NCBI GenBank assembly: GCA_026929865.2
Contig: CM049396.1
Span: forward strand, 19,399,001 to 19,463,000
Length of the DNA stretch: 64,000 nt
Reading direction: 5' to 3'
Source: Hyperoplus lanceolatus
Lineage: Eukaryota > Chordata > Actinopteri > Uranoscopiformes > Ammodytidae
Below are positions 5,682 through 62,677 of the stretch, piece after piece. The notes beneath the pieces are model-generated. The model was not told the origin of the DNA. It worked only from the letters and a program-made list of their open reading frames with translations, and did not search any database. A program made the position numbers and the translations under genes. Within the stretch, counting starts at the first letter, position 1. The number at the start of each line of letters is the position of its first letter.

Positions 5682-19373
<13,692 letters not shown>

Positions 19374-20978
19374 GGATGTCTCGGTGGGCAGCCGACACAC
19401 TCACAACTGTAACGGGACCCAGCCCTGGCTAGCAGGAGCAGCGCAGAAAACCACCGACACCACAAATCACTGCCGTCTTTGTTTGACTCAAATTGACTCG
19501 CATTGTCGGGACTCAAATGGTGTTTAGGTCCCCTTGTATTTTCCCGTCGCTGACTTCGACAAAACTTAACCTAAACAAAACATTTGTCATTCTCGAGGAG
19601 TTTTCTTCAGCCTCCCCATTAAGCTGACAGAGGAAACTTGAGTTGAGATCATGGATTGGGGGAAAAAACGCTACCCCTGAACGACATTCAAATCTGTGCG
19701 AGAGGGAGGGGAAATGTAGTTTTGTGCTACGCCGGTATCTCAACAACTGTGTAAATCGGCTCGCCTTGTTGACGCCAAGTACCAGGAAGCATTGCGTGGT
19801 TTGGACCGCACGCGTTAAGTTATATTATACTATCTATGGTTAAGTTACTAACTATGTTAATACAACACTGCCATCTAGATACCATATAATGAAACTACAA
19901 CTGATTCCACGAGACACAACTATAGTTATAGTTACAGGCACAATTCATGATAAAGTCTGATAAGAAAATATTATTGTTATTATTAAGTTTCTGACATTTT
20001 ATTTTTATTTTTTATTTTTTTTTTACAATCTGTTTGTCAAAAAAAACGAAAACTCCCAGAGCTTAAATGTTTTTTTTTGTCAGGCCAGTAGTTTAGAAAA
20101 GTTCAATTTAAATGGATATAAAAAGGCAGAACATCTGTCTGAAACCATCGAATATTTAGCATGTGTGTTAAATCAAACAATTGATACAATAAATCAATTA
20201 TCACAATATGTAGCCTATAGGCCTACTGTCACATATAGGCTTTTAATTAAGTCTCTTATTGTATCAGCTCTATTTGTGATTGACATGTAGGCTAGGCTAG
20301 GCCTGACGTAGCTCCACAAACAGAGTCAGAGTCAATTTATAAACTGACACTATAACCCTAAAAGTGTTTTGTAATGTTTTACTTTTCTCCTTTGACATTA
20401 GTGTTGTCCATGTAATAACCCTTTAAAGACATAAGAAATGAAAAACAAAAATGTTGATATTTTTTTCTAAGTCTTGATGTCAAACTCTTTAAATTCAAAA
20501 TTCAACCTGTAAAGAATAGGAAAAGGTCACATAGGTTTTCAGTTGTCTCTGAGCCTTGACACACCCGAATATGAAAGCAAAACAATCTTATCCGGGACTT
20601 TCCTTCAGTGTTGGCAAACTACTTCTGGTTGTTTATCCTGTTTAAGGAAGTTGTCTTTGAGATGTTTGATTATACCTGTTGCTGCACCTGCTACAGGGCA
20701 TTAGCCTGCACCTGAACATTGTTGGTGAGTGAGTGGCTTACACTTGTTTTTCTGGGTCTGTCTTCCATTTGTGGGAATTTTAATTAATTATGTTACTGTA
20801 GGCCTTACTATATCTCACCGTATATTCTCTCTGCTTCTCACTGTATTTTTTTCTCTCTCTCTCTCTCTCTCTCTTGCTGTGTTTCTGGCAACAGCCGACT
20901 TCTTATTTTTCCCTCAAGCTATTTATTTTGATCTGTCTCTTTACCATGAGATCATGATGATGTTTTGTTTTCAGGAGC
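19374..20978. promoter_or_regulatory. Divergent interval between bicd2 and the membrane-protein gene
   Basis: The start codons of bicd2 (minus, 19373) and the unrecognised gene (plus, 20979) face away from each other here, so both promoters should lie in this 1.6 kb. The first 430 bp next to bicd2 are richer in CpG. A donor-like TTG/GTGAGTG at 20725 could end a non-coding first exon of the plus-strand gene, whose coding starts after the acceptor at 20973-20974. A short (TC)n run lies at 20853-20874. The promoter role is inferred from position. Confidence 0.4.
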
Positions 20979-22173
20979 ATGACAGGAGGAGAGCTCTTGG
21001 CTTTTTACAAACACTGTATGTACATTATAGCCTATATTAAAAGGGCAAGGGGAGGGGCACACAACACCCAAAATTAAATGTACCTTTTTTTTAAAGGTAT
21101 TTCTTCATTTTAATATATTATTTTTCAATGTTTCTCAGACAAGTATTACCACTTTTATTCATTTTGCTTTGGTCTGGGATGTGGAACAGCCCTCTATAGA
21201 TCCTTTCGTTGTAAGTAGACATTGCATTCAAGTTTTCATGTCAAATAATTCAGACTTATTTGGAGCAATGTATGTTTCCGGTTTGTTCAACAAACCAACA
21301 TAGTTTTGCTTCATATTTTTATTTTTAGCTTATAAAGTGGCTTCTGTAACTTAATTGTTGTGTTGCTCTTTCAGCACTCGTGTTCCCATCAATTGCTGCT
21401 GTGATTTGCACCATATTGTTTGAGATTGTGGGAATACTATCTGGTAAGCTGAACTGCTGCTATTTAATTTCTTTTCTTCCCATTCTTTTTTTTGCAAGAA
21501 GGCAATTTTTGAAATATTAGACATATTGTTTTAAACATGACTTAATCTTTATGTCTTGGAGAACAACGAAGATATCAATGTTGATAGTATGTTTCCTGTC
21601 AGACGTGCCAGCCCATACAAGAGCATGTAAAGGACCTCCCTATGTCAGAAGAGGTAAGCACACACTAACAAAAGGGTTTGGATATGATTTGTACCAAAAC
21701 TGTATTTTTAACTTAAAACAGATTGATAATAATAGCAAAATATGTGATCAACTCTAACACATTTAAATAATTAATACAATTGGAACATTTTGAAACAGTT
21801 TTTTTAAACTAACTCTACCTTCCAACTCTCTTTAGATTCTTACTGGGGATTTTGTTTTGCACTTTTTGTGGCCATCCTGAACCTCAACTCATATCACGGT
21901 AAATCCACACATCTGTACAGAATGTTTGATATGCAAATGCCTTGGGAAAATGCCTGTGTCTATGGTTACATGATCTGCTTCATTCCAGTATACACACTGT
22001 CATACGGATGTGGAATCATGGTGTTTGCTATTAGAGGAGCAAAACGGAAATGCAGTTCTCTAGGTAACGCTTTTAAAACTGTGCAGATTGCTCTAATAGA
22101 TTGAAAGCTGAAGTAATTGATGGTATTTGCATGATTTAAGAATTGTATTTGTCTCTTTTGGACAGGAAGCTGA
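20979..22173 (+). CDS. Unrecognised four-helix membrane protein, 154 residues
   Basis: Six coding parts joined by good GT/AG sites in constant phase 1: 20979-21015, 21139-21210, 21375-21443, 21603-21653, 21836-22063 and 22166-22173. The start is the ATG just inside the exon that begins at 20975. The product starts MTGGELLAFYKHYKYYHFY and has four hydrophobic stretches at about 15-32, 38-58, 80-96 and 118-142. There is a basic tail (RGAKRK) and a loop with CKGPPYVRRD between helices 2 and 3. Short N- and C-termini and four helices suggest a small multi-pass membrane protein. I do not recognise the family. The regular phase, clean splice sites and an AATAAA at 22702-22707 argue for a real gene. 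It converges on tkt. Confidence 0.75.
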
Positions 22174-22820: not shown

Positions 22821-23747
22821 TTTATTTCATGAAAGTAAGGTACATACAAAATTCCAAGTAACAAAGAAAGTCTTTGTTATTGGGTTCTCAAGTCAGATGT
22901 AACCTTCATAGTCACATACAGTAATATTTTCCATTCCCCAGCACTCAAAGAGCCTCCATCGCTCCACCCTGTTTAATAAAAAAAAGATGATGCCACTGAC
23001 CACATAATAATTATTGTCACACTGCTGGTACGGAACAGTTGTACAGCACAAATTAACATTGAGGTGCTTAGGTTGATGGTAACTTTAAAATTAATAACAA
23101 AAAAAAACCTGTGCTGAAGAAAAATTATGCAAATTTTGAAACCACAAATGTTCCATTTGTTTGAAGATGTGGTCAGTTGTTTTTGAGTGACTGTTCTTTA
23201 TGACCTACCTACATTTGTTTAATTTTTTCTAAACTAGCTTCTACAAACAACTTTCTTTTTGACGCTGTTGTCATTAAAAACTACGCCCCACCCAGTTTAC
23301 TAAAAGCTACATTGGAACAATATAAAAAACATTTCCAGTTTAATGAAGTTAATCAAAGCGCATTTAAAAAACACAATGAGAGCATCACATTGTACTCATG
23401 TTGAAAATGTTATAGAACATATTGTTTTGTTGGGTGAGCATCCACCAGAAACAAAGTCAGCTACGGCCACAATTTGATTACTGAAGTTTAGATATGAGGA
23501 TATGTGTGCTTGGATTTGTGTATCTCTGTCGTTGTCTGTGTTGTGATGGATGCATGAAAGAAAGGTAAACGTGGAACTCTACATCAAAGTGTACAGCACA
23601 AAAATCACATTACTCCAGTACACACTTAGGGGCATTCACAGTGAAGGACTTCAATAAGCTGGGCGTTGTGTGAATCCAAAACATACTGGACTATTTTTCT
23701 TCATCTGCAGGGGTGTGAGCAGATATGTGGGTGGGGCAGGGGGAAAA
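22821..23747 (-). other. tkt: tkt 3' untranslated region
   Basis: The interval from the tkt stop codon (23750-23748) to a minus-strand AATAAA at 22821-22826 is the likely 3' untranslated region, about 0.9 kb. No exon or transposon was recognised in it. Confidence 0.5.
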
Positions 23748-26700
23748 TTACTTGGCATTAGTAGAGGTGCTGAGCATCTTGCGGACGGCTTGGGCGATGG
23801 AGTCACGGTCAATGCCATAGATCTTGAGCAGCTCATGAGGCTTGCCACTGCGGGGAACATGGGACACAGCCAGACGATGCAGACTGAAGCCAGACTCATT
23901 GACCATAGCTGAAGACACTGCCTCCCCAAGGCCACCTGTGGAACAGCAAGTCATGGCATGAGAGAGGTGGAGGCATGAGAGGACTCCTTGATTTATTGGG
24001 GCAGTGGTGGTAGTGGTGGAGGAAGTATTCAGATCCTTTACTTTGGAAAACAACCAATACCATACTGTAAAATACTCTGTTACAAATAAGTTAGTATGTA
24101 AAAGTATCAGATGCAGAAAAGACTATCATACTATTATACTCTGTATTATAGCATTAGATTATTATTAATCATCATTATTGTAAAAGCATGATTTTATTTT
24201 TTGCAGTTGAGGATTTGTTTCAATATTGATTAATCTGCTGATAATGTTCTTGATTAATTTACTTATTATTATTATTTGTTTGTTTTATTATCATTTTTTA
24301 TTCTGAAATATTGAGAGATGCATTGTCGGCACAATTCCCCCGAACCTAAAGTGACGCCTTTAATGGTTATTTTGACCTATCTGTCCATAATGTGAATAAG
24401 CAAATGCAGTATAACATGTACAGTAAATAGAGAGGACAAGAAACATCTAAACATGCACTCTTGACCAGTTGGTCAATATGTAAAATGAATGAGATACTCA
24501 GGCACCAGACTGATGCCAAATATCCTTTGTCTAGTCAGGGCCATGCGATTACCCATCCCTTTTCTCTTAACATGGCAGTCAGTGCTATCTAGGTCACGCA
24601 GAGCCCCATGGGCACATGCTCAGTTGAGGAAATTTGACAGCACTCTGCCTCTATGGCTCACACACTTACAAAAATGCACCACAATACCAATACCTTGTCT
24701 GCAATGAGGGCACACAGCAGTCAGCCTCTGCTCATCCAATGAGCAAATGCCACCACATTGCGTCTCTGTTGCTGAACCAATGGAAACATGCCACCACAAC
24801 ACACCAGAGGATATGGACCAATGACAGAGCTGCAGCTGCTTTGTGCTAAAATGCTTTTTGCTGGTTTGGTAATGCTCATATTATATGCAGAGGCTGAACA
24901 ATATGAGCAATTCTTGTGTAAGCCTACCTTCATAGTAGTGGTCTTCCACTGTGAGGATGCGTCCTCGGGTGGCACGTGTGTGGTCCATGATGGTTTTGGC
25001 ATCCAGTGGTTTGATTGTGAAGGGGTCAATGACCCTGACTGAAATCCTCTCTGTGAATTCAGTTACTCCAGTTAATACGGCATACTATACATCTTATCTT
25101 CTTATGATCAAAGCATGCATTTGATGTACGGTACCTTTCTTTAAATGTTCGGCTGCAGCCATGGCCTCATGCAAAGTCACTCCAGCTGCCACAATAGTCA
25201 CCTGGTCATCTTTGCTTTGGTACACCACCTGGCAAAGGGAAAGGTATTGTCTTCTGTTTCAGATAAAAGTGTTGACAGTGCATGTTGTGTTCATTTTGTA
25301 GACAGACAGTTTTTCTGCTTTCTGCTTTTCCTCACACTGTCTTAATGGTATGCTTGCACAAAAAATGTCGCACCTTAGCTTGTCCAACATGGAAGTCCTC
25401 GCTGCTGTTATAGACAATGGCACAGTCTTGGCGGCTGGTTCGGATGTAGCAAACACCCTTTATAAAGGGAAACAGGACAATCACCACAGGGGAATTTTGA
25501 CAGATTCTTTTCTTTTTTTAATATAGATAAATACTCCACAAAAAAAATGCATTTTCGTTTTTGGTACCTTTGTCATAGCTGCCAATTCCACAGCCTTCTC
25601 TGTAGACACACCGTCACAGGGATAGAAGATGGTCGCATTGGGAAGGGCCCTGAACATAGCCACGTCCTCTAGACCCATCAGAGAGGGACCCTCCTCTCCT
25701 GTAAGATGTACATTTATAGCTGATGTCATACGTCCAGCATTCAGAACAGTACTCAAAAAGGTATTGACAGGTCAGATCAGCTGATGCATGCAGATCCAAA
25801 GACAAAGCCAGACTTTGCATGCGGTTGTACCTGCACTAACAGAGGGACACCTGGTTCCCTGTTGACAGCTTCCAGGGTACACAGGAAGAGAGTAAAGGGG
25901 GAAGGATTGAGTATGGCTGTAGGGCCGAGGAAGGTCACGGTAAGGAGAACACAGGGAAAGAGGGAAAGAGTGAAGGATTGAAAAACGTGCAGATTCACAA
26001 AAACAAACACACGCAGATCGCTCTTGTATACATTAGGGATACTGAGAGAAGAAAACAGGTGTTGTGATATGTCTGGCTTCAGTGTGAGGGAATAAAGGTG
26101 TGTGGGTGGGTAACAAGTGTGGGGGGGTGCAGTGTGGTAGGTACTTTCCAGCAGTTAACTAACCGGTGGACAGGCCGCAGTGGGAGCCACACAAGTTGAT
26201 GTTGCTTTCTGAGATGGCAGCTATGCGGAGCTGGTCGTAGGCGCGGGTGAAAAGGGAAGCAAGAGTGCTAGCGTACACAACGTTCCTCTCACGGGCAGCA
26301 CATCCCATGGCAACACTAACCTGGAAATTAAATATATTTTGTATTTTTTTTTTTACAAGAGATATATCTTCCATGTTCTAAATTAGGGTAGATACAGGTC
26401 AGGCCCTCTAAATCCCTAGAAAGATCACCCAAAAGGGTCAATTATCTGTGGCACAAACCAAATTTAAAAAGCTCTTTGAACCAAGACTACCTTTAAGCAG
26501 AGACTCAGTGAGAAGGGTTTTCTCCAAAGCTCAGGGGCTTGGTTTCTCATATGGGTGGAATCAGTCTCATACCTTCGCCTTCAAAATAATTTCCGTTGTC
26601 CTGCTTTCAAAACTCTCCCCAATCCCACAACGTCTGCCTTTGTTTTGCCAGAATCAAGAGCACAGCAGCACCCACCAAAGTGCAACTGCACATTAACAAG

Positions 26701-29700
26701 CAGTTGTTTCATTCAAAATTAGGGGTAAGAAAAATTAATTAATAAGAAATAAAATTAATCTGTTTTCATGACAAATCCGACGTCAAATTTTATAACGTCC
26801 AAATGTGTTTTTGTTTCATTTCCAAAAGTCAAAGAAATGTCGCTAATCAACTTTTGACTTTCTCATGTATTCAGCCAGATGGTCCCACCCTCCGCACTTA
26901 TTAATATTTTACTTCTGAACACACTTGTCATGTCTACTTATCATCAAACACATGCCTGACCTACATTAGGAGTTGGCTGCTGCTGGAGCCATAACAGCTC
27001 ACAGAGTTAATGTCTGATGGCCTCTCTCCAAATTATTAATCCCAGATCAGATAAAATAATGACAGAGGCAAAATAAGGGTACTGCCTAACCACTGGGGTC
27101 AGCGGCAGCCGCATAGGGAGGCAAGTGGGTTGTTTCTTCCCCCAACCTTTACATTATGGATAGACAAGTCATGTATAATTAAAGGACAGGCTCAGACTCA
27201 CAGCTGTGATGTGTAAGGTTAAACTCATGAGTAAAACCGTCAGAGAGATTGAATTATCAAAACCACCACATTAAAGAGATAAAGGGAAGTTTTGCTAGAA
27301 GATTTTACCACACTTGAAAAAAGAGTGACCAAAAATACTATATATGTAATAAAGATACCTTTGTTAGTAAATATAGGTCTTACAAAATATATTTTCCAAT
27401 GACTTAATTCCATAGATTCACGAGGATTCCTACCATGTTCTGCTGAGCGATGTAGCACTCCACAAAGCGGTCGGGATGCTCATTCTTGAAGATCTCTGAA
27501 TAGGTGAGGTTGTTGGTGTCTCCGTCAAGGGCCACAACACGTTCATTGTAGCGGCCTAACTTGGCAATTGCCATCCCATAAGCCTTCCTGGTGGAAATCT
27601 ATGAAGAAAGAGTTTACTGGTCAATCTTTACCCAGTGTATAACTATTAGCCTCTGTTGGTTTCTTTAGATGCACTTGAGAAACAGGGGGAATATGGGGAT
27701 ATGAAGCCCGGCCCCTGTACAGGTGACAGACCTTTTCTCCAGCCTTGTAGCTGGGTGCACTGGGCATCCTGATGTTCCTCAGGCTGACCGGTGGAGAATC
27801 CTCCATGGGCGTTGGAGGGTACAGGTGCTTGCTGCTGTTCATGATGCGGCTCTGCAGCTCCTTCAGAACCATCTCAGCCATGTCTTTGGGCACAGGTTTG
27901 GCATGCCACCCCAGCTTATCCTCAGCAGCTTCAACCACATATAGACATCATGGCATCACATTGGTAGATTGAAACACTTTTTGGTGGACAGTTAGATTGG
28001 AAAGCTGATGCTGTGTACATGTAATATGCACTAGAGTGAGAACAATGCATGCGGATGAGTAGTTGACAGTGACAATTACCTGGAATGCCTTTGCCCTTGA
28101 TGGTTTTAGCGATGATTACGGTGGGTTGATGGCGTGGCTGGCTCAGAGCTTTGCAAAGCTCCTCCACACTGTGTCCATCCACAATGATGGCATACCAGCT
28201 ACACACACCCAAGCACACACATCCAAGCCATACATAAAAACATGTGCGATACAGTATGCTTCATACAGGTCTATGGCATGGATATGCACCAGAACAGATG
28301 TAAAAGTTATGGGTAGACCTCAGGTAATGCATGTTGAATCTAACTTTATATTATCTCCACCTCCCAGCATAGCATTTACTTTACATTGACACCATCAGCC
28401 ACTATTCCAATATAGTCAGTTGAATGCACTATTACCCGAAAGCTTCACAACGTTTCTGATATTTCTCCACGTGATGCTGCAGGGGTGCAGAGTCACTTTG
28501 GCCCAGGCGGTTGATGTCCAAGATGGCCACCAGGTTGTCAAGCTGGTAGTAGGAAGCGAAGGACATGGCCTCCCAGACAGCACCCTCCGACATCTCTCCA
28601 TCCCCGAGCAGGCAGTACACACGGTAACTGAGGCGGAGAACACACAAGACAATTAGTGTGTGTTTCCAAGTGTGTATGTCTGTGTGCATGGTGTGTATTC
28701 AGATGTGGGTGGGGTGTTGTGCTCTGAAGAGAAGCTGCAAATCCCACGCAAACGTTCTCAGACACTTTTCCAGTCCGATTGATTCTCTTTCCATTAACTG
28801 GCAGTTGAGCTGTTAACCAGCTGTGACATGATAAAAGCTTCCCGAGGCCCCTGGGGCGTGGCTGCGTGAGTTTCACACCTTTCTCTGAAATATTTCTTCC
28901 ATAAGAAGCTTACAGCCATTTCAATGGGACGAATTGTAAACTTATGATATAAAGAAATAGTAATTTGTAAATACAAATTAAGTGTGCGTTGATGTCCTCT
29001 ATATACAGAAAGCGTTTTATAAAAATAAAAAAGTGGAAAAAAGAAATACATTTCTTTTGGCTGTCATTACATGGGGGAAAATAAAGGAAAAGGTTCAGTT
29101 TGAGATGATAAATTCCAACAATAGACTAGGAATTAGCACATGGTGGAAAACACAACGCCTACATTCGATTTTGAGATTAAATCAGCTTGGATGGTAAAAC
29201 ATTACTGAGATAGGACTGCTGGGCCTGTGATTATTAGAGCAGAAGAATTGTGAGAGCAGAGCATGTAGCCACAGCACAAACCCACAGAATCCGGAACATC
29301 TTAACCACTAAGCAATATAAAGAGGTATGTTACAAACCTATAATTTAAATCAAGATAAAAGAAATCACCTTAAATCAATCAAATTATGTTATGATTATAT
29401 ATTATGTATTGTACATCAAATAATAGTTGGGTCAGTGTCTGGATTTTTCTTAAGGTAAGTGAGAAATCTAGCGGCCTTATTTCCCACAGGGAAAGAAGGG
29501 GCATAGGTAAAGTAAAAAAGTGAGAAATCTAAAATACATTTAGATGTTCAAGAAAGGTCAGAATTGTGTGCGCGTGTGTGTGTCCGCCTCTATGAGTCGA
29601 GAGCATACCTGGCCTTGTCGAAGTATTTACCAGTGTAAGCCATACCACATGCCACACCAAGACCCTGCCCCAAAGAGCCAGTGGCAGTATCCACAAACTG

Positions 29701-31240
29701 GTGCTTCTGAAACGAAACGCATACAGCACACACAATCAAGTAAAACCAGACGCTATGCTGCAAGTGCTCAATGAGAATGTAATGCATGCAACGTATGTGA
29801 AGCTTACATGGGTTTGGTGGCCCTCCAGGGTAGAGTCTACATTGCACAAACTGAGCAACTCGCTCTCCTTCATGAAGCCCGCTTCAACCCACATAGAGTA
29901 CAGGGCCGGAGCAGCGTGGCCCTGTGGTTGTAAGTAAGTAATTCACAAGAAAAAAGTTAAATTCTTCATACCATTTAGACACAAATCAAAATATAACAAT
30001 GAGGCTTTCTGTACAACCCACTTACCTTGGACAGGATGAAGCGATCATTGTTGAAATTCTTTGGGTCATCGTAGCGGTACTTCATGGTGTGGAAGTAAAG
30101 CACTGACATGATTTCTGCCACGCTGCAGCATGATGTAGGGTGACTGCACGACAGAGGAGACATTGCTGTTAAATGTAAATGTAAATCTACCAATCTTTTT
30201 TTCAACATTTTGTGTTACCACAGATTGAACAATACCACACTATTCTTTAACATAACTATAAGAGGACATGATACTAAAATTTGCAGTTTATCATTAACAT
30301 TTTGAAATTCTTTTCCTGAAGCAGCTGCGAAATACCAAGTCAAAACGCAACAAACAGTCCATTCACTCAGCACTGCACATGGTAGTCTATTGTGCCTACT
30401 ATGTGGAAGTGCATTCACTTTACAAAATCAGAACTCAAACAATATTTATCTTCCAGTCAAAGTAAATATTTAAACATTTTGAAATATTCTTATATTATTC
30501 GCTTTTAAATGTTTTATAATGTGTTTTATGTATTCTTATCTTGCCCCTGTAAAGCACTTTGAGTGGCCTTGTGTCTGAATTGTGCTATATAAATAAACTC
30601 ATTTTACAGAATATGGAAATCTGATTATCAGAGAAATAAAGATTAAAGTAATCTATCTTAATGTGCATTATGATTACAGTGTCTTAGAGTTGGGTTTGTT
30701 CACTGCATTTCTCTCAAAATGACAAATGGTTTAATTGAAATTTCTGCAATGCATGATTTATATATTTTCTGTAAAGCAGAATAAAGCACAGTGTGTAATG
30801 TAGATTTTTAGATTTCATTAATTCAACCAAATGAAATGTTGGAGCACAACTAATTAAATAGCATTGGTTGATGCTCAAGATAGACCAGATGGAGGAGAAC
30901 AAAGGCAGGACATGCTGTTCCTTTGGCTCCATCACCTTCATCCACAGTATATCTGTTTGTGTGAGTCTGTTCATGCAGGTCTGTAGTGCATTATGTGTGA
31001 CTGTTGGTGTTCAGCTATAGATGCTGCAAAAAAGTATTACGTTTGCAATATGTTTTGCTCACTCTTGTGCACTGTGCATTGAATTCACAATCTGAAAAGC
31101 TCAAGTGTGAGAAAAAAGTGGAGGGCAACTCACCCACTGCCAGCTGCAGTAGTGGCCTTGATAGAGTGGATTCGAAGGCGGTTGGCAATGTTCCTCAGTG
31201 CCTGCACTGTCTGCTGGTCAGGTTTGTGGTAATCCTCCAT
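23748..31240 (-). CDS. tkt: Transketolase, with altered cofactor-site residues
   Basis: Fourteen coding exons, minus strand: 31134-31240, 30026-30143, 29808-29921, 29609-29706, 28436-28627, 28080-28198, 27732-27928, 27434-27598, 26164-26320, 25568-25698, 25374-25457, 25135-25228, 24928-25050, 23748-23935; 628 residues (human TKT: 623). Transketolase moves two-carbon units between sugar phosphates in the cytosolic pentose phosphate pathway, using thiamine diphosphate (TPP) and Mg2+ or Ca2+. Seen: SGHPTSCCS and [10 protein letters not shown] near the N-terminus, the GDGEMSEG to [11 protein letters not shown] cofactor motif, [24 protein letters not shown], and the C-terminal DPFTIKPLD domain. 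Odd: residue 367 is Gln where human has the catalytic Glu366, and residues 390 and 393 are Leu where human has Phe389 and Phe392. The paralog (tkta or tktb) is unresolved. Exon 7 is taken to start after GTTGAAG, which keeps family length. Confidence 0.93.
24019..24120. repeat. Interspersed teleost repeat (AAGTATTCAGATCC type)
   Basis: The stretch starting GGAGGAAGTATTCAGATCC, followed by a diverged ACTGTAAAATACTC segment, resembles a dispersed sequence I associate with many fish genomes. It lies in the last tkt intron. The identification is from memory and the edges are vague. Confidence 0.4.
30535..30604 (+). repeat. L2-like LINE/SINE 3' tail relic
   Basis: CTGTAAAGCACTTTGAGTGG followed by TGCTATATAAATAAAC matches the conserved 3' tail shared by fish L2-type LINEs and dependent SINEs. 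Only the tail is recognisable. It lies in tkt intron 1. Confidence 0.5.
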
Positions 31241-37072: not shown

Positions 37073-39058
37073 TTAGGGAACTAGGCAGGTTGATGGCAAC
37101 TGTGACGTGGCGCGCTGCCAGGGTTGGCTGGCGCAGTCGTCCCAGTCGGAGGTGTGTCGAAAGACCCTCCGTTCTCTTCCAGTGATCCCAGGCCAGACGT
37201 TGGGCCAGCTGCTCTTTGGGCCCCGGTGCGAAGTGTTCAGGTTGACCAGGCTAGACAGTAGTTGCACGCTGCAACGTGCACCTCTGCCTGATTCCAGGCT
37301 GGGAACCTCTGTGGTACCCTGTGCCAGTAGCTTCAACCACGTTCAGGTGGACAATCGAGGGGCCAGTGCTTCTCAGCACATTCTGGACAGCGCCGTAACA
37401 CCGGCGCTACGGTCTGCATTTCAGGCGCCAGGAGGTCGGCGTCCAGCCTCCGCTCTCCCCCAGAGTCCTTGGGAGTGCTACTCGATGCTCGGTAGGTTCT
37501 ACTCCACCTAATTTCAGGTACCAAGAAGTGGGGCAGATTCCCCGTTCTGGACTAAGAGGGCGGAATCAGTGCCTCACGATTCTTCCTTTCCACATGCTGC
37601 GTGTTGCAGGTGTCCTCCAGTCTATCGCTCAGGCAGACTGGGTTGTGTCAATAGCCCTGAAAGACGCTACTTTCAAGTCCCTACTGCCCATTGTCACAGG
37701 TGGTCCTCCCCTTTGCATTTCTGGGCAAGGTGTACCAGTTCAGGGTTCTTCTGTTTGGGCCGTCCCTTGCTCTGCGCAAATTAAACAGTGTGTGGCAGCT
37801 TCCCTGTCACCATTACAGCTCAGCGGTATGGTATACTGCCATACCTAGACAACTGGTTGATCATTTCTCCCAACTCAGGAACAGGCGGTCAGGGACACTG
37901 CCACACTCCTCAGCCATGGGAACAGGCTTGGCCTCACAATCAATCTTACAAAGGGCAACCTTACACCAGGTGTTGGGTTGTGAGTTACTTGGGGCTGGTG
38001 CTCGACTCGGCGGCCATGCGAGCCTGCCTTTCTCCAGAGCGCGTAGCTACCGTTCGGCAGCTACTACAGCACTTCATACAATGGAGGCTGCTGGAAGACA
38101 GCCTCTTCCTTCGACCGATAGGTATGCTGACCTCGGCATCCATGAGGGTCCGACTAGGCCTTCTCAAGTTGAGTTCTCTTCAGATCTGGGCGAATGGTCT
38201 CCACTTGGACCCCAAGTGGCAGAGACGCAAGATGGTCAGGGTTTCTGGGCAGTGCCTTCGGGCACTCAGACCCTGGAGAGAGAGGGCATGCTTGATTGCA
38301 GGGTCGCCCTTAGGGAGGAAACCCCTGGCGTGAGGTTGTAGAGACAGATGCCTCCTTGTCAGGCTGGGACGCAGTCTGTTAGAGCACGACTGTCATAGGC
38401 CAGTGGGATGCCCAGCAGAGACTGGAGCATGTTATAGGCTGGAACTCCTTGCAGGGCCCTTAGCACTCAGGTTTCAACCACCAGGTGGGCGCCAGATCGA
38501 AGCAGGGCCTGCGGGTTACGCAAGGGCTCCTTATGTCGGTGCTTCCCCATTATCTAAACTGTCCATGTTCCAGGTGTCTGGAACACAGCGATAGACCTTC
38601 TCTCTCACCAAGGGCCACCCCCCGGGGAGTGGAGACTCCATCCGGAGGTGGTAGGCATGATTGGGACAATTACGGCAGGGTAGTGGCATATCTATTTGCT
38701 TCCGAATAGATGACCCACTGTTCCCCTTGGTTCTCCTAGATGGAGAGGACCAGTCCCCTAAGACAGGATGCTCTGGCTAATGATTGACCAGCTTGCTTTA
38801 TGCATTTCCTCCAATTCTCTTTTCACTGGCAACACTGGACAGGGTCCAGCATTGCAGTTACAGCCTACGTTTGGTGGCTCCACATTGGCCAGGAAGGCCA
38901 TGGTTCCCAGCGTTACTAAAACTCCTCAAAGGAGACCGTTGGTGCCTTCCAGAGAGACAGGACCTTCTGTCTCAGGTAGGCGGACACATGTAGGGCACCC
39001 GAACTCGGGGCGCCTGCAGCTTGGCGTGTGGCTCTTGATAGCCAGGATCCACTGTTGA
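37073..39058 (+). pseudogene. DIRS copy 1 reverse transcriptase/RNase H remnant
   Basis: The gag-like frame resumes at 37107 (LAQSSQSEVCRKTLRSLPV). Reverse transcriptase fragments follow in shifting frames, best at 37788-38333 with LPYLDNWLI, FLRPIGMLTSA and LQIWANGLHLD, all parallel to copy 2. Several frameshifts and stops, plus the lost second Asp of YLDD, make it inactive. The region to about 39058 parallels the downstream YAFPP-type segment of copy 2 in broken frames. Confidence 0.8.
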
Positions 39059-39059
39059 C

Positions 39060-40075
39060 GTATTGCGACCAGTCAGAGGTCAATACCTTTTTAAGTTCAA
39101 GGGCACTCTCCACTATACGGCACTATGCAAACAGGTGGAAGTTGTTTTCACAGTAGTGCATGGCACCTGGCGAAGTCCCAGGGACTTGCTCATTGATAGT
39201 GATTCTACACTTTCTGCAGTCTGTGTTGGGCAACAGAAGAGCTGCTTCCACCCTGCGCGTTTATGTGGCCGCACATGCAGGGATGGATAACCAGACGGTA
39301 GGTTCCCACTACCTAGTCAGGCAGTATCTGAAGGGAGGCCAGAGGCTTCATTCAGCTACCATGGCCCCTGAGGGCACCATCAGGGGACTTGCAAGTAGTC
39401 CTGAGGGCCTTAGGTCTGCCCCCATTTGAGCCGCTGAGTCAGACAGACCTGACACATTCCTCTTTGCTGTTGCGACTGCAAACGGTTGGTGAACTCCATG
39501 CCTTGTCAGTGAGCCAGGCGTGCTTGCGCTGCCATGTAGAAGGGTCAGGAGTGGTGCTCTCGCCACATCCATCCTTCCTATCCAAACGATTGTCTCCCCA
39601 CCATGTAAACCAATCGATCAAGTTGGCTGCTTTCAATCCCCTAGGCTAACCAGGGGGTGCAGAAATAATGTCAGACCCACTGTGCCCACGGTGCATAGGG
39701 TATATGTTGTGGAAACAACCAGCTTGTGTAAGACAAATAACCTCTTTGTCTGCTATAGAAGCTGAAGGAAGGGGGCTGCCCCGTCCAAACAGAGACACTC
39801 CCACTGGCTTGTGGATGTGGTCTTAAATACATTATGGGCCAGTTTCACAGATATGGATTAAGCCTAGTCCTGGACTAAATGGAATTTTGAATGGAGATTG
39901 TCCATTGAAAGTACAATTTAGTCCAGAACTAGGCTTAATCCATGTCTGCGAAACCGGCCCATAGAGTCATGGGCCGCCTTAAAGCGGGCTCCACGTCAGG
40001 ACATTTGCGCCTAGGCTACATGGTCTTCATCATGTACGTTGCGCGACTCTACAGAGTATGTTGCTGCACCTCATC
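39060..40075 (+). pseudogene. DIRS copy 1 tyrosine recombinase remnant
   Basis: Fragments ASTLRVYVAAHAG, DNQTVGSHYLVRQYLKGG, LPPFEPLSQTDL, VGELHALSVSQACL and NNLFVCYRS follow the recombinase of copy 2 in order, and VARLYRV near 40040 corresponds to its active-site Tyr segment. A 127-bp MITE interrupts it, and stops and frameshifts are frequent. Confidence 0.78.
39835..39961. mobile_element. 127-bp palindromic MITE
   Basis: It is almost a perfect hairpin: GATTAAGCCTAGTCCTGGAC on the left pairs with GTCCAGAACTAGGCTTAATC on the right. The outer ends TGGGCCAG / CCGGCCCA are flanked by TA on both sides (39833-39834 and 39962-39963). It sits inside the recombinase remnant of DIRS copy 1, so it inserted later. 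Confidence 0.8.
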
Positions 40076-56893: not shown

Positions 56894-57936
56894 TTAGGAA
56901 GGGCCTGAGGGTTCCTGGAAAACAGCTGCAGCCACTGCGTGGCGAGCAGCTACATTGACCCTGTAAAATCGGGCAAAGGTGCACGCTGAAGCCCAGGAGG
57001 TCGCTGCACAAATTTCACTTAGAAGCACTCGTCTTAGTGCTGCCCTGGAAGTGGAGACACTCCTGGTGGAATGGCCTCTGACGTTAGGAGGCAAAGGCAG
57101 TCCTCTTGACTTGTATGCCTCCTCATTTACCACCCACTTGGAAAGCCTCTGTCTGGACAGTGCTTGCCCCTTTCTCGGTCCCCCGTAGCAGACAAACAGG
57201 CCATCAGACTGGCGAAAACCAGCAGTTTCCTGTATGTAACATCTCAAGGCTCTCACCGGGCAGAGTAGTTCTGCTGAACTAGCTTCCCCATCCGGTGGGT
57301 GTGAGGGGCCATAAGCTGCTAGCTGTATGACCTGATTATAGAAGGCCGAAGGCAGCCTCTTTGGGAAGAATGAAGGGTTAGGCCACAGTGCCACCCCTGT
57401 GCCATCTGAGTTCCAGCGTATACACTGTTCACTCACTGACAACGCATGAAGCTCACCAACACGCTTGGCTGATGCAATCGCTAGAAGAAAGGCAGCCTTT
57501 GCTGACAGCCATTTCAGCGGCGCCTGATCCAGGGGCTCAAATGGGGGGAGACAGAGGGCTCCCAGCACCAGAGGCAGGTCCCATGAGGGAACCTTGACAA
57601 CTAGTGGGGGGGTTCCTCCGCTGGGCTCCTTTAAGAAATCGGGTCACCAAAGAATGAGATCCCACCGTCTGGTTATCAACCTTAATGTGCCTGGATGAAA
57701 TAGCAGCCACATAGACTCTTAACGTGGAAGCAGATAGCTTCCTCTCCAGTAAGGACTGCAAAAAACGCAGTATCATTGGCACTGAGGAACTCTCCGGTAC
57801 CTCTCTCTGAGCCTTACACCACTCCGCAAATATCTTCCACCTGTTAGCATAAAGTGCCCTGGTGGAGGGAGCTCTTGAGTTTATGATGGTCTGAACTACC
57901 TCCTGGTCGCATGCCATCAGAAGTGGATCGGGCCCC
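56894..57936 (-). pseudogene. DIRS copy 2 tyrosine recombinase (frameshifted)
   Basis: The N-terminal part (SRAPSTRALYANRWKIFAEW, SASTLRVYVAAISSRH) lies at the end of the frame 57537-58559; the catalytic part lies in frame 57568-56894. The active-site set is visible in the latter: Arg36 (SAKRVGEL), His166 and Arg169 (GHSTRS), Trp192 and Tyr202 (FARFYRV). A frameshift near 57570-57600 separates the two halves, so the intact enzyme is not encoded, but all catalytic residues remain. Confidence 0.85.
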
Positions 57937-59581
57937 TCAAGGGCCAGACCCATAGCTGCAGGCATTCTGGTTTGGGGTGCCAGCTGGCCCCCCAGCTGTG
58001 AGAGCAGGTCCTGTCTCCTTGGCAGGCACCATGGATCTCCATCCAGCAGCCTGTACATTACTGGAAACCAGGGTCTCCCTGGCCAGTTTGGGGCAACCAG
58101 CAGGAGTCTGTAGTTCCCCTTCTGAACTCTGTGTAGGGTTAACCCTATCAGTGGAAATGGTGGGAAGGCATAAAGGAGCTGACGTGGCCATGGATGTGCC
58201 AAGGCATCCTGTCCCATCGGACTCTTCTCTGCCAGAGAGAACCAGAGAGGGCAGTGTGTTGTGGACTCTGACGCAAACAGGTCCACCTCTGCTGTGCCAT
58301 ATTTGCTCCATATTGCCTCTACTACCTCTGGGTGGAGTCTCCATTCCCCGACGGAGGTTTCTGGCGTGAAAGAAAGTCTGCCACCGTGTTCTGTGGCCCT
58401 GGAAGGTACATAGCCCTGAGGCTGGAGAAGTAAGGGAGAGCCCATACCAGGAGTTGCTGTGCAACCTGTAATGACTGAGCCGACCTTGTGCCCCCTTGAT
58501 GGTTCACATTGTAGACAGCTGACTTGTTGTCGCTTCGTACCAGAACATGTCTGCCTCACAAAAAAGTCAGGAATCTGCGGAGCGCTAAATACATAGCACG
58601 GAGCTCAAGCACATTGATGTGCTGTGTCATGTGCTGCGCACTCCAGAGCCCTCTCACCGCCCTGTGCTGCCATACTGCCCCCCAGCCAGAGGGCGAAGCA
58701 TCGGTCACCACCACCTCGCGGCACGAGGGGATCGAACCCAGTGTGACACCTTTGGCAAGATATGCCCTGCGTCTCCAGGGTCGTAATGCCAGGAGGCATT
58801 GACTGGACAGCCTGACTTTCCTGGATCCGCGCACCCTCGTGTCTAAGTGGAGGCCATTGGTCCATATTTGGAACGGCCGCAAGTGCAGGAGGCCCAGTGG
58901 TACTATTGCCGTTACTGACGTCAACATCCCCAACAGCCTGAGACAAAGGCTGTACCTTACCCTCCTGTCCTCCCGAAAACGCAGGAGGAGCTGTAGTATT
59001 GCTTCTACCCGCCGCGGAGACGGGCAAGCAAGCATCTGGACGGAGTCCAGGGTAATGCCAAGGAACAGTACCTCTTGGCTGGGTATCAGACAGCTTTTGC
59101 CATAATTAACCGTAAGACCCAACCTTTCCACATGGCCTAGGAGGGCCGTGGTGTCCTGCTCCGCCCGTTCCCGGGTCGGAGCGCAAATAAGCCAATCGTC
59201 CAGATAAGGGAATATTTGCAATCCGGTGGCTTGCATTGGTGCGAGTGCCGCACGCATGCACCTTGTGAAGATCCTTGGGGCTAGCGATAACCCAAATGGG
59301 AGGACCCTGAACTGGTAGGCCCGCCCTTCGAATGCGAAGCGCAGGTATGGCCTGTGATGTGGTGCAATTGGGACGTGAAAATACGCGTCCTTTAAATCTA
59401 TTGACGTGAACCAGCTTTGCCGTGTCACAGCCTGGAGCACTTCTGCTGTCTTTAACATGTGAAAGGGCAATACTTTCAGAAAACTGTTCAGCCCTCGTAA
59501 GTCCAGTATAGGGCGAAACCCGCCCTCTTTTTTTGGAATTAAAAAATACACTGAGTAAAACCCACCTTGCTGTGTCCGAGG
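57937..59581 (-). pseudogene. DIRS copy 2 reverse transcriptase-RNase H (frameshifted)
   Basis: The frame 59551-58556 holds the polymerase: IPKKEGGFRPILDLRGLN, SIDLKDAYFHVPI, FGLSLAPRIFT and the catalytic YLDD (59206-59195). RNase H begins with VVVTDASPSGWGAVWQ and LELRAMYLAL, then continues in another frame (VRSDNKSAVYN, FLSRQKPPSGN, 58507-58322). Downstream DLFASESTTHCPLW and YAFPPFPLIGL resemble the methyltransferase-like zone of DIRS elements. At least one frameshift near 58556 interrupts it. All proximal polymerase motifs are kept, so decay looks recent. Confidence 0.88.
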
Positions 59582-59727
59582 ATCTACGATCTCGATGGCC
59601 TTCTTCTTCAGGAGGGTGGATACTTCTTGGCTGAGGGCCTGTCGCCTTGTGGGATCGCTGACTGAAGTCAGTCTGATCCCCCTGAAAACTGGGGGCCGGC
59701 GTCAGAATTGGAGATTGTACCCTTGGG

Positions 59728-62677
59728 TTAGCGTGGCCACCACCCAAGGGTCTGTAGTGCAACTTTCCCAGCAGATGAGGTGCTGCTGGGAGAAGCGTCC
59801 GACGGCCGGCCCTGAGCCCTCAGGGTCTGCCCCCACGTCCTCTTGGGACCCTGGGGGGGGCGAAACCCTGACCCCCGCCCCCTCTGTGCCTGGGGTGCTG
59901 GCCATGTGGGAGTACGGCGGGGTTGATAGGATCGCTCAGGAGCAGGTGAGGTCCTGGGATAACCACCAGGACGCGCTGGCGGCAGAGGACGATTGGTGCC
60001 ATTACCTTGTGGAGACTGCTGTCTCGGTTGGGGTGTAGGTCCCCGAAGGCTAGCGAACTGCTGCCGTGTCTGGTTAGCCTGAATGCCACGATTCAAGGCC
60101 TGTTGTGCTGCCGGGCCAAACAGCTCCCCCGGAACTACGGGGAGAGTGCGGAGGATTCTTCGGCATGGCTCTGATAATGGGGACTGGGCCAGCCATACCT
60201 GGCGGCGCGCCAAAGTAAGCGTCGACATCAGCCTACCAAGTTCTCTGGTCATGAAGCCTGCAACGACGTATCACTTAGACTCTGCACTGAAGCCTCGGCA
60301 CTGGACGCTTGCAAGGACTACGACAGGGCCAGTATCAAATGTGAAAACGAGTTCCCAATGCGGCCCATACGTGCCGCTGTGTCATAGCACTTTGTTAGCA
60401 GGTCATCCGTAATGCGACACTGTGGCCTGGGACAGCGAGTGTTCGGCCTCAACACCTCCTCCGGTGCTACAATGAGGGAGGCAATGGTCGGCTCTACGGC
60501 TGGCATTCGGTCAAGTCCATGCTTGCCGGCATTCTGCATCGAAGCCAAAGCCCTGCTGTCACTGGTGTGATGAGATAGAGATCTGGGGTCTGGCCAGCAT
60601 ATGTGAAGCTCCTCGATATATTTTTGGGAGGGAGGCACAGAAAAATTCTCTTGTGGCGGGACACGCCTAAAGAATGCACTAGCTGGAGCGCTTGCTGCTG
60701 GAGCCTCATCCAACCCTAACCGTGCCAGTGCCATTCGGACCACTGGCTTAACCGTGGCCGAGGAAGCCTCCGAGCCTGCCCTAGACCCACTTCCTGCAAT
60801 CTGGGAGTCGTCTTCAGAAGCCTGGGTAGAAGCCTCTACTTCATCCTGTCCCGGCCTGTCTTCGTAGAACTGGCTACAGGAGGCCCTCGTAGACAGGGCA
60901 TCTTCATCCCCTTCTGGTGTGGTCGGAGCCTCTGCCTGAGGGATAGACCCCTGGGATGACTCCAACCTGACTGGCTGAAGGTTAAAGAGCAAACTCTTAC
61001 AGTTTTTCACAATTGTTTAAACACATTTTTTGGAACATAAGACACAATGTGCACAATCTGTAACTAATTTACCAACTGCTTAACCAATTCTGCTGAACTC
61101 CAAACACATTTCCTGCCTTAGACTCATATTCCCTTTCCAGAACACACATTTTTCACAACATTACACACAATTTTCTATATATTGCACACTCTTCCTGAAT
61201 TCTCTCTCTTGGTATTCACACAGAACACACTGCCAATCACATTTCTAAACTCAAAAGGCTTTTATGCAGTTAGCTATAGAAGGGTCAGAGATGAGCTCCT
61301 GTTTGCTGTGATTTACAGTAGACTGCACATTTTGGTACAAATACAGTTTTTGCCGAATACTGTAAACGCTAAAAGTGACTGCTATGACCACAGCATCACA
61401 ACCTCTAACTTTTGTAACCATGCTCTAAACCAAAGCTCCAACCCTACAAACACAATAAATGCTTTGCGCTGTGTTTGAAATTCTCCAACATACTTCTTGA
61501 AAAAAAATTAAACTAATTGAAAACCAATCAGTCTAAGCCTTAGCACTACAAATAGACCCCAGGTGAGCTCAGCTCCTTTCTGAGACAGTGAGAGTCAGGG
61601 GAAGAGGAGGAGAGAGAGCGACAGGAGGACGAGGACAAATAAGGCAACAGACGGAGACACATACACCAGGGACACTATAGTGGACTATGTTATAGATCAT
61701 GGCCTATCAATGAGGGAGCCTGGACAGAGAGTGTCTCAAAGGGAGACATTGAGTGTGATGTTGATGAGGCGATGTGGCCAGATGCAAACAGGAGGCGGTA
61801 TCCATAAAAGGATTCATAATCCAACCACCCAAGTCCTTACAACACTGTTTTTTTTATTCTACTGTAATTGTTTCTTAGTTTATGATGACACACTGAATTG
61901 CTTGAACTGCAGTCCTACCTATTCATTGTGTTTGTTTGAAATGGCAAAATAAACTATTCTGCATAATGTGTGTTAGCATTTGGCAAAAACCGTAAAGTCT
62001 TTGTTGTTACTATAGGTGAAAGTGTATGAACATGCAAAGGCATAATTCTACTGATAAATCATTCATATAGTGTTTTGCATTTATACTACAGTGTTTTCCA
62101 TTCTGCACACCAGTGTTCAATGAGTGCTAGAAATGTCTAGTCATATGATGTGTGTGTTTGTCATTTGAAAAGAAAACACCATTTAGTGAAGAGTTAACAC
62201 TGTTTTGAGCGTAAAGTGTGCTTTTGCAAGAGAAGTGAAGGATTTTGCATTTTGTGTTTGAGTTTTGGAATTTGGGTTTAGGGTTTTGAAAAAGTGAGGT
62301 AGTCTATCAGGAAATGTGTTTAAGCAATTGTGAAAAACTGTAATCTCAGCAAACTCTGACACTAGCTTATCCACTTTGGCAGCATAATGGTCAGTCTTCT
62401 TAGTCCTCTTCCTAGGCGGGGCCGCCCTGGGTGGGGAGCGTACTCGTACCTCTGGTTCTTCCCCAGGCAGGGGAAGCTCACCTTCAACCTGAGGTCCTTC
62501 CACCTCTGCTAGTCTCGCCTCCTTTAGCCCATGCGGCATGAAACTGCAGTTCATGCACTGATTGTCAGACAGCCCCTCCTTCAGGTGGACCACACCGAGG
62601 CATGCGGGGCATTCATCATGTCCATCTGTAGTTTGCAGTGGAGCCATGCAAGTGCGGCAACCATGTGAGCCTAACAT
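59728..62677 (-). pseudogene. DIRS copy 2 gag-like gene, split by a transposon
   Basis: It starts at 62677 with a Cys-rich segment (CRTCMAPLQ, HDECPACLG, QCMNCSFM), is interrupted at 62341 and resumes at 60997 (KSLLFNLQPVRLESSQ). Restoring a single TA keeps the frame. It runs through CRITDDLLTKCYDTAAR, meets a TAG near 60325 and a frameshift near 60250, and continues as a Pro/Arg-rich stretch to 59728. No enzyme domain is visible. Copy 1 has the matching fragments. Confidence 0.75.
61000..62340 (-). mobile_element. Internally deleted IS630/Tc1-mariner-like transposon
   Basis: Perfect inverted ends CAGTTTTTCACAATTG / CAATTGTGAAAAACTG with TA duplications (60998-60999 and 62341-62342). The interior (61640-61800, plus-strand reading) has only two pieces of a transposase like that at 41770-44584: the N-terminal DYVIDHGLSMREPG and the C-terminal CDVDEAMWPDANRR, joined with the whole DDE core missing. 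The rest is AT-rich. It is non-autonomous and belongs to a related but distinct family, since its ends differ from those at 41093. Confidence 0.88.

Follow-up and report, generated by a model that had tools for sequence, protein, structure and literature searches.

A stretch of 64,000 nucleotides from Hyperoplus lanceolatus (contig CM049396.1, positions 19,399,001 to 19,463,000; hereafter the window, C2:19399001-19463000) carries a transketolase gene of 14 exons on the minus strand, 31240..23748, which we call copy C. Spliced translation gave an open frame of 628 residues, and 13 of 13 introns had GT and AG ends, so that the 14 in-frame exons described in an earlier note on this DNA stand. The product combined the N-terminal, pyrimidine-binding and C-terminal Pfam domains of the transketolase family in one chain, all above cut-off (PF00456 with 150.5 bits, PF02779 with 126.1 and PF02780 with 106.3). 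Aligned with human TKT (PDB 4kxu) it scored 1047.9 bits, the alignment covering query residues 1-622; 443 of the 621 residue pairs were identical (71.3%). The GDG...N motif for diphosphate and Mg was present with Gly154, Asp155, Gly156, Glu157 and Asn185. A tblastn search of the window with the two canonical copies of the genome, A and B (see below), turned up no canonical alternative to exon 8 or exon 9. Three ATTAAA hexamers lie closer to the stop codon than the candidate AATAAA polyadenylation signal (Table 1).

We defined the active site by 27 positions (diphosphate-binding half 16, pyrimidine-binding half 11) taken from PMC6334435, PMC8016368 and PMC10688766. Numbering follows PDB 4kxu. 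The printed Arg100 of PMC8016368 was read as R101, and N189 and G125 of PMC6334435 as Q189 and G123, while Ser345 and His416 carry TKTL1 numbering in PMC6334435 and TKT numbering in PMC8016368. This list superseded an earlier list of 19 diphosphate-side and 13 pyrimidine-side residues, from which it differs by the addition of R101 and the removal of P111, G154, D155, L187, D341 and R395. The site is composed of two subunits, with His37, Arg100, His110, Lys244 and His258 from subunit A and Arg318, Ser345, Glu366, His416, Asp424, Gln428 and Arg474 from subunit B (PMC8016368).

Copy C differed from human TKT at seven of the 27 active-site residues: R101C, S345L, E366Q, F389L, F392L, D424E and Q428L. 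The changes were unevenly distributed with 1/16 in the diphosphate half and 6/11 in the pyrimidine half (Fisher p 0.0087). The glutamate at N1' of the cofactor, expected of a catalytic transketolase (EC 2.2.1.1), is Gln367 in copy C, and the other six changes affect contacts of substrate or pyrimidine. S345 has been tied to substrate phosphate binding via its TKTL1 equivalent (PMC6334435). Kept were the diphosphate ligands Ser40, Lys75, His77, Gly156, Glu157, Asn185 and Lys244 as well as His37, His110, His258, His416, Arg318, Arg474 and the proton wire residues Glu160 and Glu165 (PMC10688766). The earlier note had reported a CAG codon for Gln opposite human Glu366 and two Leu codons opposite Phe389 and Phe392, and translation of the minus strand (CAG, CTT and CTT) together with the alignment to PDB 4kxu bore out all three. 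Its count of only three pocket changes was too low, given the seven listed here and the near-invariant P111Q and P113H outside the list. Likewise, its statement that the rest of the enzyme is intact held for the frame, the diphosphate ligands and His37, His77, His110, His258 and His416, but failed for R101, S345, D424 and Q428.

At the codon level the change from Glu to Gln requires a single base (GAG to CAG). Differences of two to three bases from both copies A and B were seen for S345L (CTC vs TCT/TCC) and F392L (CTT vs TTC); outside the list of 27, P111Q has CAA where copies A and B have CCC. Since several codons are two to three bases away from those of both other copies, the changes cannot be one error.

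The rarity of these changes was assessed against bacterial relatives, the best 80 of 137 from a genome-contig scan with an alignment of the three proteins. All 80 have bacterial titles and none contained an internal stop. At each of the seven changed pocket positions the human residue was present in 80/80 bacteria and also in copies A and B. When positions identical in A, B, human TKT and at least 78 of the 80 bacteria were regarded as strict, copy C broke 17 of 167, R101C, P111Q, P113H and G259A being among the changes at such positions. The same control gave 0/150 for copy A, 1/151 for copy B and 1/151 for human TKT; the median bacterial relative broke none of the 167 and the worst seven. 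By domain the 17 breaks of copy C were located in the diphosphate half (6/87) and the pyrimidine half (11/50), with none in the linker (0/1) or the C-terminal domain (0/29). Under the strict definition 7/26 pocket positions were changed vs 17/167 overall, a moderate enrichment (p 0.0066). With the superseded list 6/13 pyrimidine-side residues were changed (p 0.012 vs the remaining conserved positions on that side), while on the diphosphate side it was 1/19 (P111Q) vs 14/158 other conserved positions of that half (p 1.0). By these alignments, the pocket changes of copy C are beyond chance or common variation.

The assembly of 806.7 Mb in 527 contigs was searched with the copy C protein as a query, and exons were found at three loci (at least 40 matches, E up to 0.01, best candidates scored), i.e. 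copy C and the canonical copies A and B. No further C-like copy was found among the best candidates scored. Copies A and B each retain 27/27 pocket residues; thus the genome encodes canonical transketolase without copy C. Copy C is a paralogue, then, as the earlier note had suspected when it proposed to look for a second tkt. In the assembly, exon 7 of copy A (end at C10:11552646) is followed by a GC donor (gcaaat), its counterparts in copies C and B by GT. Copy B falls outside the clade that unites human TKT with A and C; parts of it look, by eye, like TKTL1/TKTL2, yet all 27 pocket residues are there. These features would make the split of TKT and TKTL old and the active state ancestral. The flanks of copy A, 9.5 kb on either side, gave no match to the open reading frames (ORFs) of the window at E 1e-4, and the Bicaudal-D (BicD) fragments of the window had no match at any of six loci around copies A and B. 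One pattern search of viral contigs yielded no relative.

A maximum-likelihood tree of 44 rows was built from copies C, A and B, human TKT and 40 of the 80 bacteria. Copy C was sister to copy A with a support of 100/100, followed by human TKT, with B outside. The branch of C was 3.3 times as long as that of A (0.19 vs 0.058), and the tree program flagged the amino-acid composition of copy C as deviating from the alignment. In relative-rate tests 57 changes were unique to C vs 16 to A with B as the outgroup (p 1.6e-6), and 64 vs 22 with human TKT as the outgroup (p 5.9e-6). Four-fold third positions were identical at 81/172 sites between C and A (47%) and at 67/151 between C and B (44%). Agreement of C with A that is nearly as low as with B shows that synonymous sites are saturated and hence that the duplication is old. 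In the tree it follows the split from the human lineage, a position that would fit the teleost genome duplication. A codon model rejected neutral evolution of copy C by 24 log-likelihood units (2 delta lnL 48); this result averages over the entire history of the gene and is compatible with a recent loss of constraint. On this sequence comparison, copy C is an old duplicate that was constrained for most of its history. An essential residue lost, an intact frame and long-term constraint place copy C in our working category of pseudoenzymes. Both the codon model and the unbroken frame led us to reject an old pseudogene.

Taken together, we consider it somewhat better than an even bet (roughly 55%) that copy C, an old tkt duplicate, has lost ordinary transketolase competence and is kept by selection as a regulatory dimer partner of copy A (or B). 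The parts of this reading differ in strength. Loss of activity appears likely from the residues involved, and the lost or changed chemistry proposed in the earlier note is strongly suggested by the seven altered active-site residues. Dimerization with A or B may be given even odds by analogy with TKTL1, and a regulatory role, by which copy C would lower or redirect transketolase flux, is advanced tentatively. Of the 'structural or regulatory' role named in the earlier note, a regulatory dimer partner would be the most specific version by the precedent of TKTL1.

The proposed mechanism starts from active sites that each consist of the diphosphate half of one subunit and the pyrimidine half of the other. 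In a C:C dimer the damaged pyrimidine half of C would be part of both sites. Because copy C keeps 15/16 residues of the diphosphate half and has lost 6/11 of the pyrimidine half, and because sites are shared between subunits, such a dimer would be close to dead. Loss of the glutamate should disable the N1' proton relay by which the cofactor is activated, and contacts to substrate or cofactor would be affected by the changes of Ser345, Arg101, Asp424 and Gln428. R101 we take, from the yeast enzyme, to be tied to substrate phosphate binding. In a C:A (or C:B) dimer one site, formed by the diphosphate half of C and the pyrimidine half of A, would be nearly complete and lack R101 only among the 27 residues, while the second site with the reverse pairing would be broken. 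A mixed dimer with one good site is the mechanism that we favor.

The closest precedent is human TKTL1, like copy C a vertebrate TKT paralogue that has lost residues otherwise invariant. TKTL1 has a deletion of 38 residues, Gly76-Pro113, that removes His77 and His110, and a TKT-delta38 deletion model had no detectable activity (PMC3485151). On its own TKTL1 was reported as virtually inactive, while the TKTL1-TKT heterodimer was asymmetric and favored ribose-5-phosphate; dissociation constants (KD) were 0.146 μmol/L for TKTL1-TKT vs 0.118 μmol/L for TKT-TKT (PMC6555833). The status of TKTL1 is disputed, as it has been described as inactive based on the deletion model (PMC3485151), as a bona fide enzyme based on homology modelling (PMC6334435) and as a heterodimer regulator (PMC6555833). 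Its lesion is a deletion in the diphosphate half, whereas copy C has substitutions mainly in the pyrimidine half and no deletion; His77 and His110 are present and the region Gly76-Pro113 is undeleted. In turn, a homology model of TKTL1 retains the equivalents of E366, Q428, F389 and F392 (PMC6334435). With its lesion in the opposite half and these four residues kept, TKTL1 is a different protein from copy C, which might nevertheless act in a similar way; since each site borrows one half per subunit, the two proteins would disrupt different sites when part of a mixed dimer. In the tree, whose only human member was TKT, C and A grouped with it and B fell outside. Human TKTL2 is also a TKT paralogue and has Q38 in place of TKT H37, but at four positions that are altered in copy C it retains the TKT residue (E370, F393, F396 and Q432; PMC6334435). 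From canonical human TKT and copy A, with which it shares the three Pfam domains and, for A, the exon lengths, copy C is set apart by the 7/27 changed active-site residues including the N1' glutamate. Expression lists of fish name tktA and tktB or a tktl (PMC7222756, PMC6687772). None of the titles and abstracts listed in the literature searches, which covered few subscription journals, described a fish transketolase without the N1' glutamate, so that this is weak evidence of novelty.

Several observations weigh against a dead regulatory subunit. The hybrid C:A site may itself be impaired, because R101C, P111Q, P113H and G259A are at conserved positions, three of them near His110 or His258 in sequence. 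Ligands R318, H416 and R474 of the pyrimidine half persist, although a pure loss of function would not need them; the retention of such substrate ligands is as compatible with a retuned enzyme as with a dead one. Under a looser definition pocket enrichment was moderate, 7/27 vs 46/392 conserved positions (p 0.028). Together with the p of 1.0 for the diphosphate side of the superseded list this means that faster evolution of the whole copy C protein may be part of the pattern. The ratio of nonsynonymous to synonymous rates (dN/dS, omega), a check put forward in the earlier note, upheld constraint by the rejection of neutrality and gave no consistent relaxation on C: one model yielded an omega of 0.055 for C vs 0.106 for A and B (p 0.037), a second codon model 0.080 for C, 0.038 for A and 0.15 for B. 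Because branch omegas are confounded with saturated lengths, the rejection of neutrality alone was used. Omegas by domain for C vs A and B were 0.039/0.099 in the diphosphate half, 0.073/0.269 in the linker, 0.060/0.059 in the pyrimidine half and 0.070/0.144 in the C-terminal domain; they show no relaxation on C and, being calculated with fixed, saturated branch lengths, were given no weight. Finally, the literature records one natural exception to the requirement for the glutamate, and thus absence of the glutamate is no proof of absence of chemistry.

This exception leads to the possibility that copy C is a working thiamine diphosphate (ThDP) enzyme with changed chemistry, in which Gln replaces Glu, the leucines reshape the pyrimidine pocket and the substrate has shifted with the loss of S345 and R101 and the changes D424E and Q428L, perhaps to an unphosphorylated or smaller donor. 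The retention of the diphosphate ligands, of His37, His77, His110, His258 and His416 and of the proton-wire residues E160 and E165 is in line with such an enzyme, as is the clustering of changes at pyrimidine and substrate contacts with cofactor anchoring spared. The record speaks of 'only one known exception' to the Glu rule (PMC6350894), and glyoxylate carboligase, which figures in a reference title of PMC6270654, is a ThDP enzyme that naturally lacks the canonical glutamate at N1'. That protein belongs to another ThDP family. It is active with Val, not Gln, at the position of the glutamate. Yet the glutamate is found in 80/80 bacteria, copies A and B and human TKT, the two substrate-phosphate residues S345 and R101 are lost jointly, and N1' Glu mutants of the yeast enzyme have a few per cent of activity or less. 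Activity figures for yeast or human N1' Glu mutants were not found in the literature searched, where the variant was met only in reference lists. We regard a working enzyme as unlikely. Still less probable is its most specific form, in which copy C would add a second case to the one natural exception on record, with Gln and a Leu-lined pocket serving a new reaction on a substrate without the usual phosphate contacts.

Somewhat less credible than a working enzyme in general is a protein without catalysis that serves some unrelated structural purpose and is retained for fold and stability alone. Transketolase is a corneal crystallin of mammals, and a crystallin-like task would agree with constrained fold positions and no change at any of the 29 strictly conserved positions of the C-terminal domain, but 15/16 kept residues of the diphosphate half are unexpected if cofactor binding were irrelevant. 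The poorest chances are those of recent decay or of an appearance altered by assembly error. The single base behind the Glu to Gln change and the long branch of copy C would suit it; 14 intact exons, GT/AG introns, no stop, the rejection of neutrality over the whole history, seven separate pocket changes and no second C-like copy found in the genome search speak against it. Sequencing or assembly error as the cause of the whole pattern was ruled out, as the seven pocket changes are separate and the gene is intact.

Downstream of copy C on the same strand the window contains exons of a Bicaudal-D gene (7336-9170, minus strand). Possible further exons of this gene are at 6085-6372, 9583-9732, 14441-14644 (by eye) and 19140-19391 (no Pfam family matched). 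Short exons of a multi-pass membrane protein, DRAM/TMEM150-like by eye, were seen on the plus strand at 20700-22100. Retroelement sequence is present at 56897-61016 (minus strand) and 37077-39423 (plus strand), by eye from related DIRS-type elements; the frames 56897-57643, 60321-61016 and 37661-38338 matched no Pfam family.

Table 1. Coordinates of copy C, its altered codons, the other transketolase copies and neighbouring features. Positions refer to the window unless a contig is given; exons 2 to 11 are based on the spliced frame and alignment, exons 12 to 14 on the spliced frame.
Feature	Position	Strand	Remarks
Copy C exon 1	31134..31240	-	ATG at 31240; donor GTGAGT; 94% identity to copy A over 36 residues
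Copy C exon 2	30026..30143	-	His37, Ser40, Lys75 kept
Copy C exon 3	29808..29921	-	His77, His110 kept; R101C, P111Q, P113H
Copy C exon 4	29609..29706	-	Gly123, Leu125 kept
Copy C exon 5	28436..28627	-	GDG motif, Glu160, Glu165, Asn185, Gln189 kept
Copy C exon 6	28080..28198	-	Lys244 kept
Copy C exon 7	27732..27928	-	His258 kept; G259A
Copy C exon 8	27434..27598	-	Arg318 kept; S345L, E366Q
CAG codon, Gln367	27443..27445	-	Opposite human Glu366 (N1' glutamate); GAG in copies A and B
Copy C exon 9	26164..26320	-	F389L, F392L; His416 kept
CTT codon, Leu390	26261..26263	-	Opposite human Phe389 (alignment)
CTT codon, Leu393	26252..26254	-	Opposite human Phe392 (alignment)
Copy C exon 10	25568..25698	-	D424E, Q428L
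GAG codon, Glu425	25691..25693	-	Opposite human Asp424 (alignment)
CTG codon, Leu429	25679..25681	-	Opposite human Gln428 (alignment)
Copy C exon 11	25374..25457	-	Arg474 kept; P475Q
Copy C exon 12	25135..25228	-	
Copy C exon 13	24928..25050	-	
Copy C exon 14	23748..23935	-	Stop TAA
Candidate AATAAA polyadenylation signal	22821..22826	-	921 nt past stop; pattern match only
Copy A	C10:11543023-11558961	+	628 residues, 14 exons, lengths same as C; 80.3% identity to C
Copy B	C10:18777811-18767895	-	626 residues; 62.4% identity to C
Pfam BicD match	7336-8214	-	457.9 bits
Pfam BicD match	8778-9170	-	171.4 bits
Reverse transcriptase RVT_1	58559-59701	-	96.3 bits
DDE transposase fragment PF13358	42571-42996	+	20.1 bits, below cut-off
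DDE transposase fragment PF13358	44087-44581	+	52.1 bits

As a putative regulatory partner of the canonical enzymes, copy C would offer a natural example, accessible to experiment, of a dead subunit regulating the pentose phosphate pathway. If, on the other hand, copy C turns over, it would be a rare opportunity to learn how strongly ThDP catalysis relies on the N1' glutamate.

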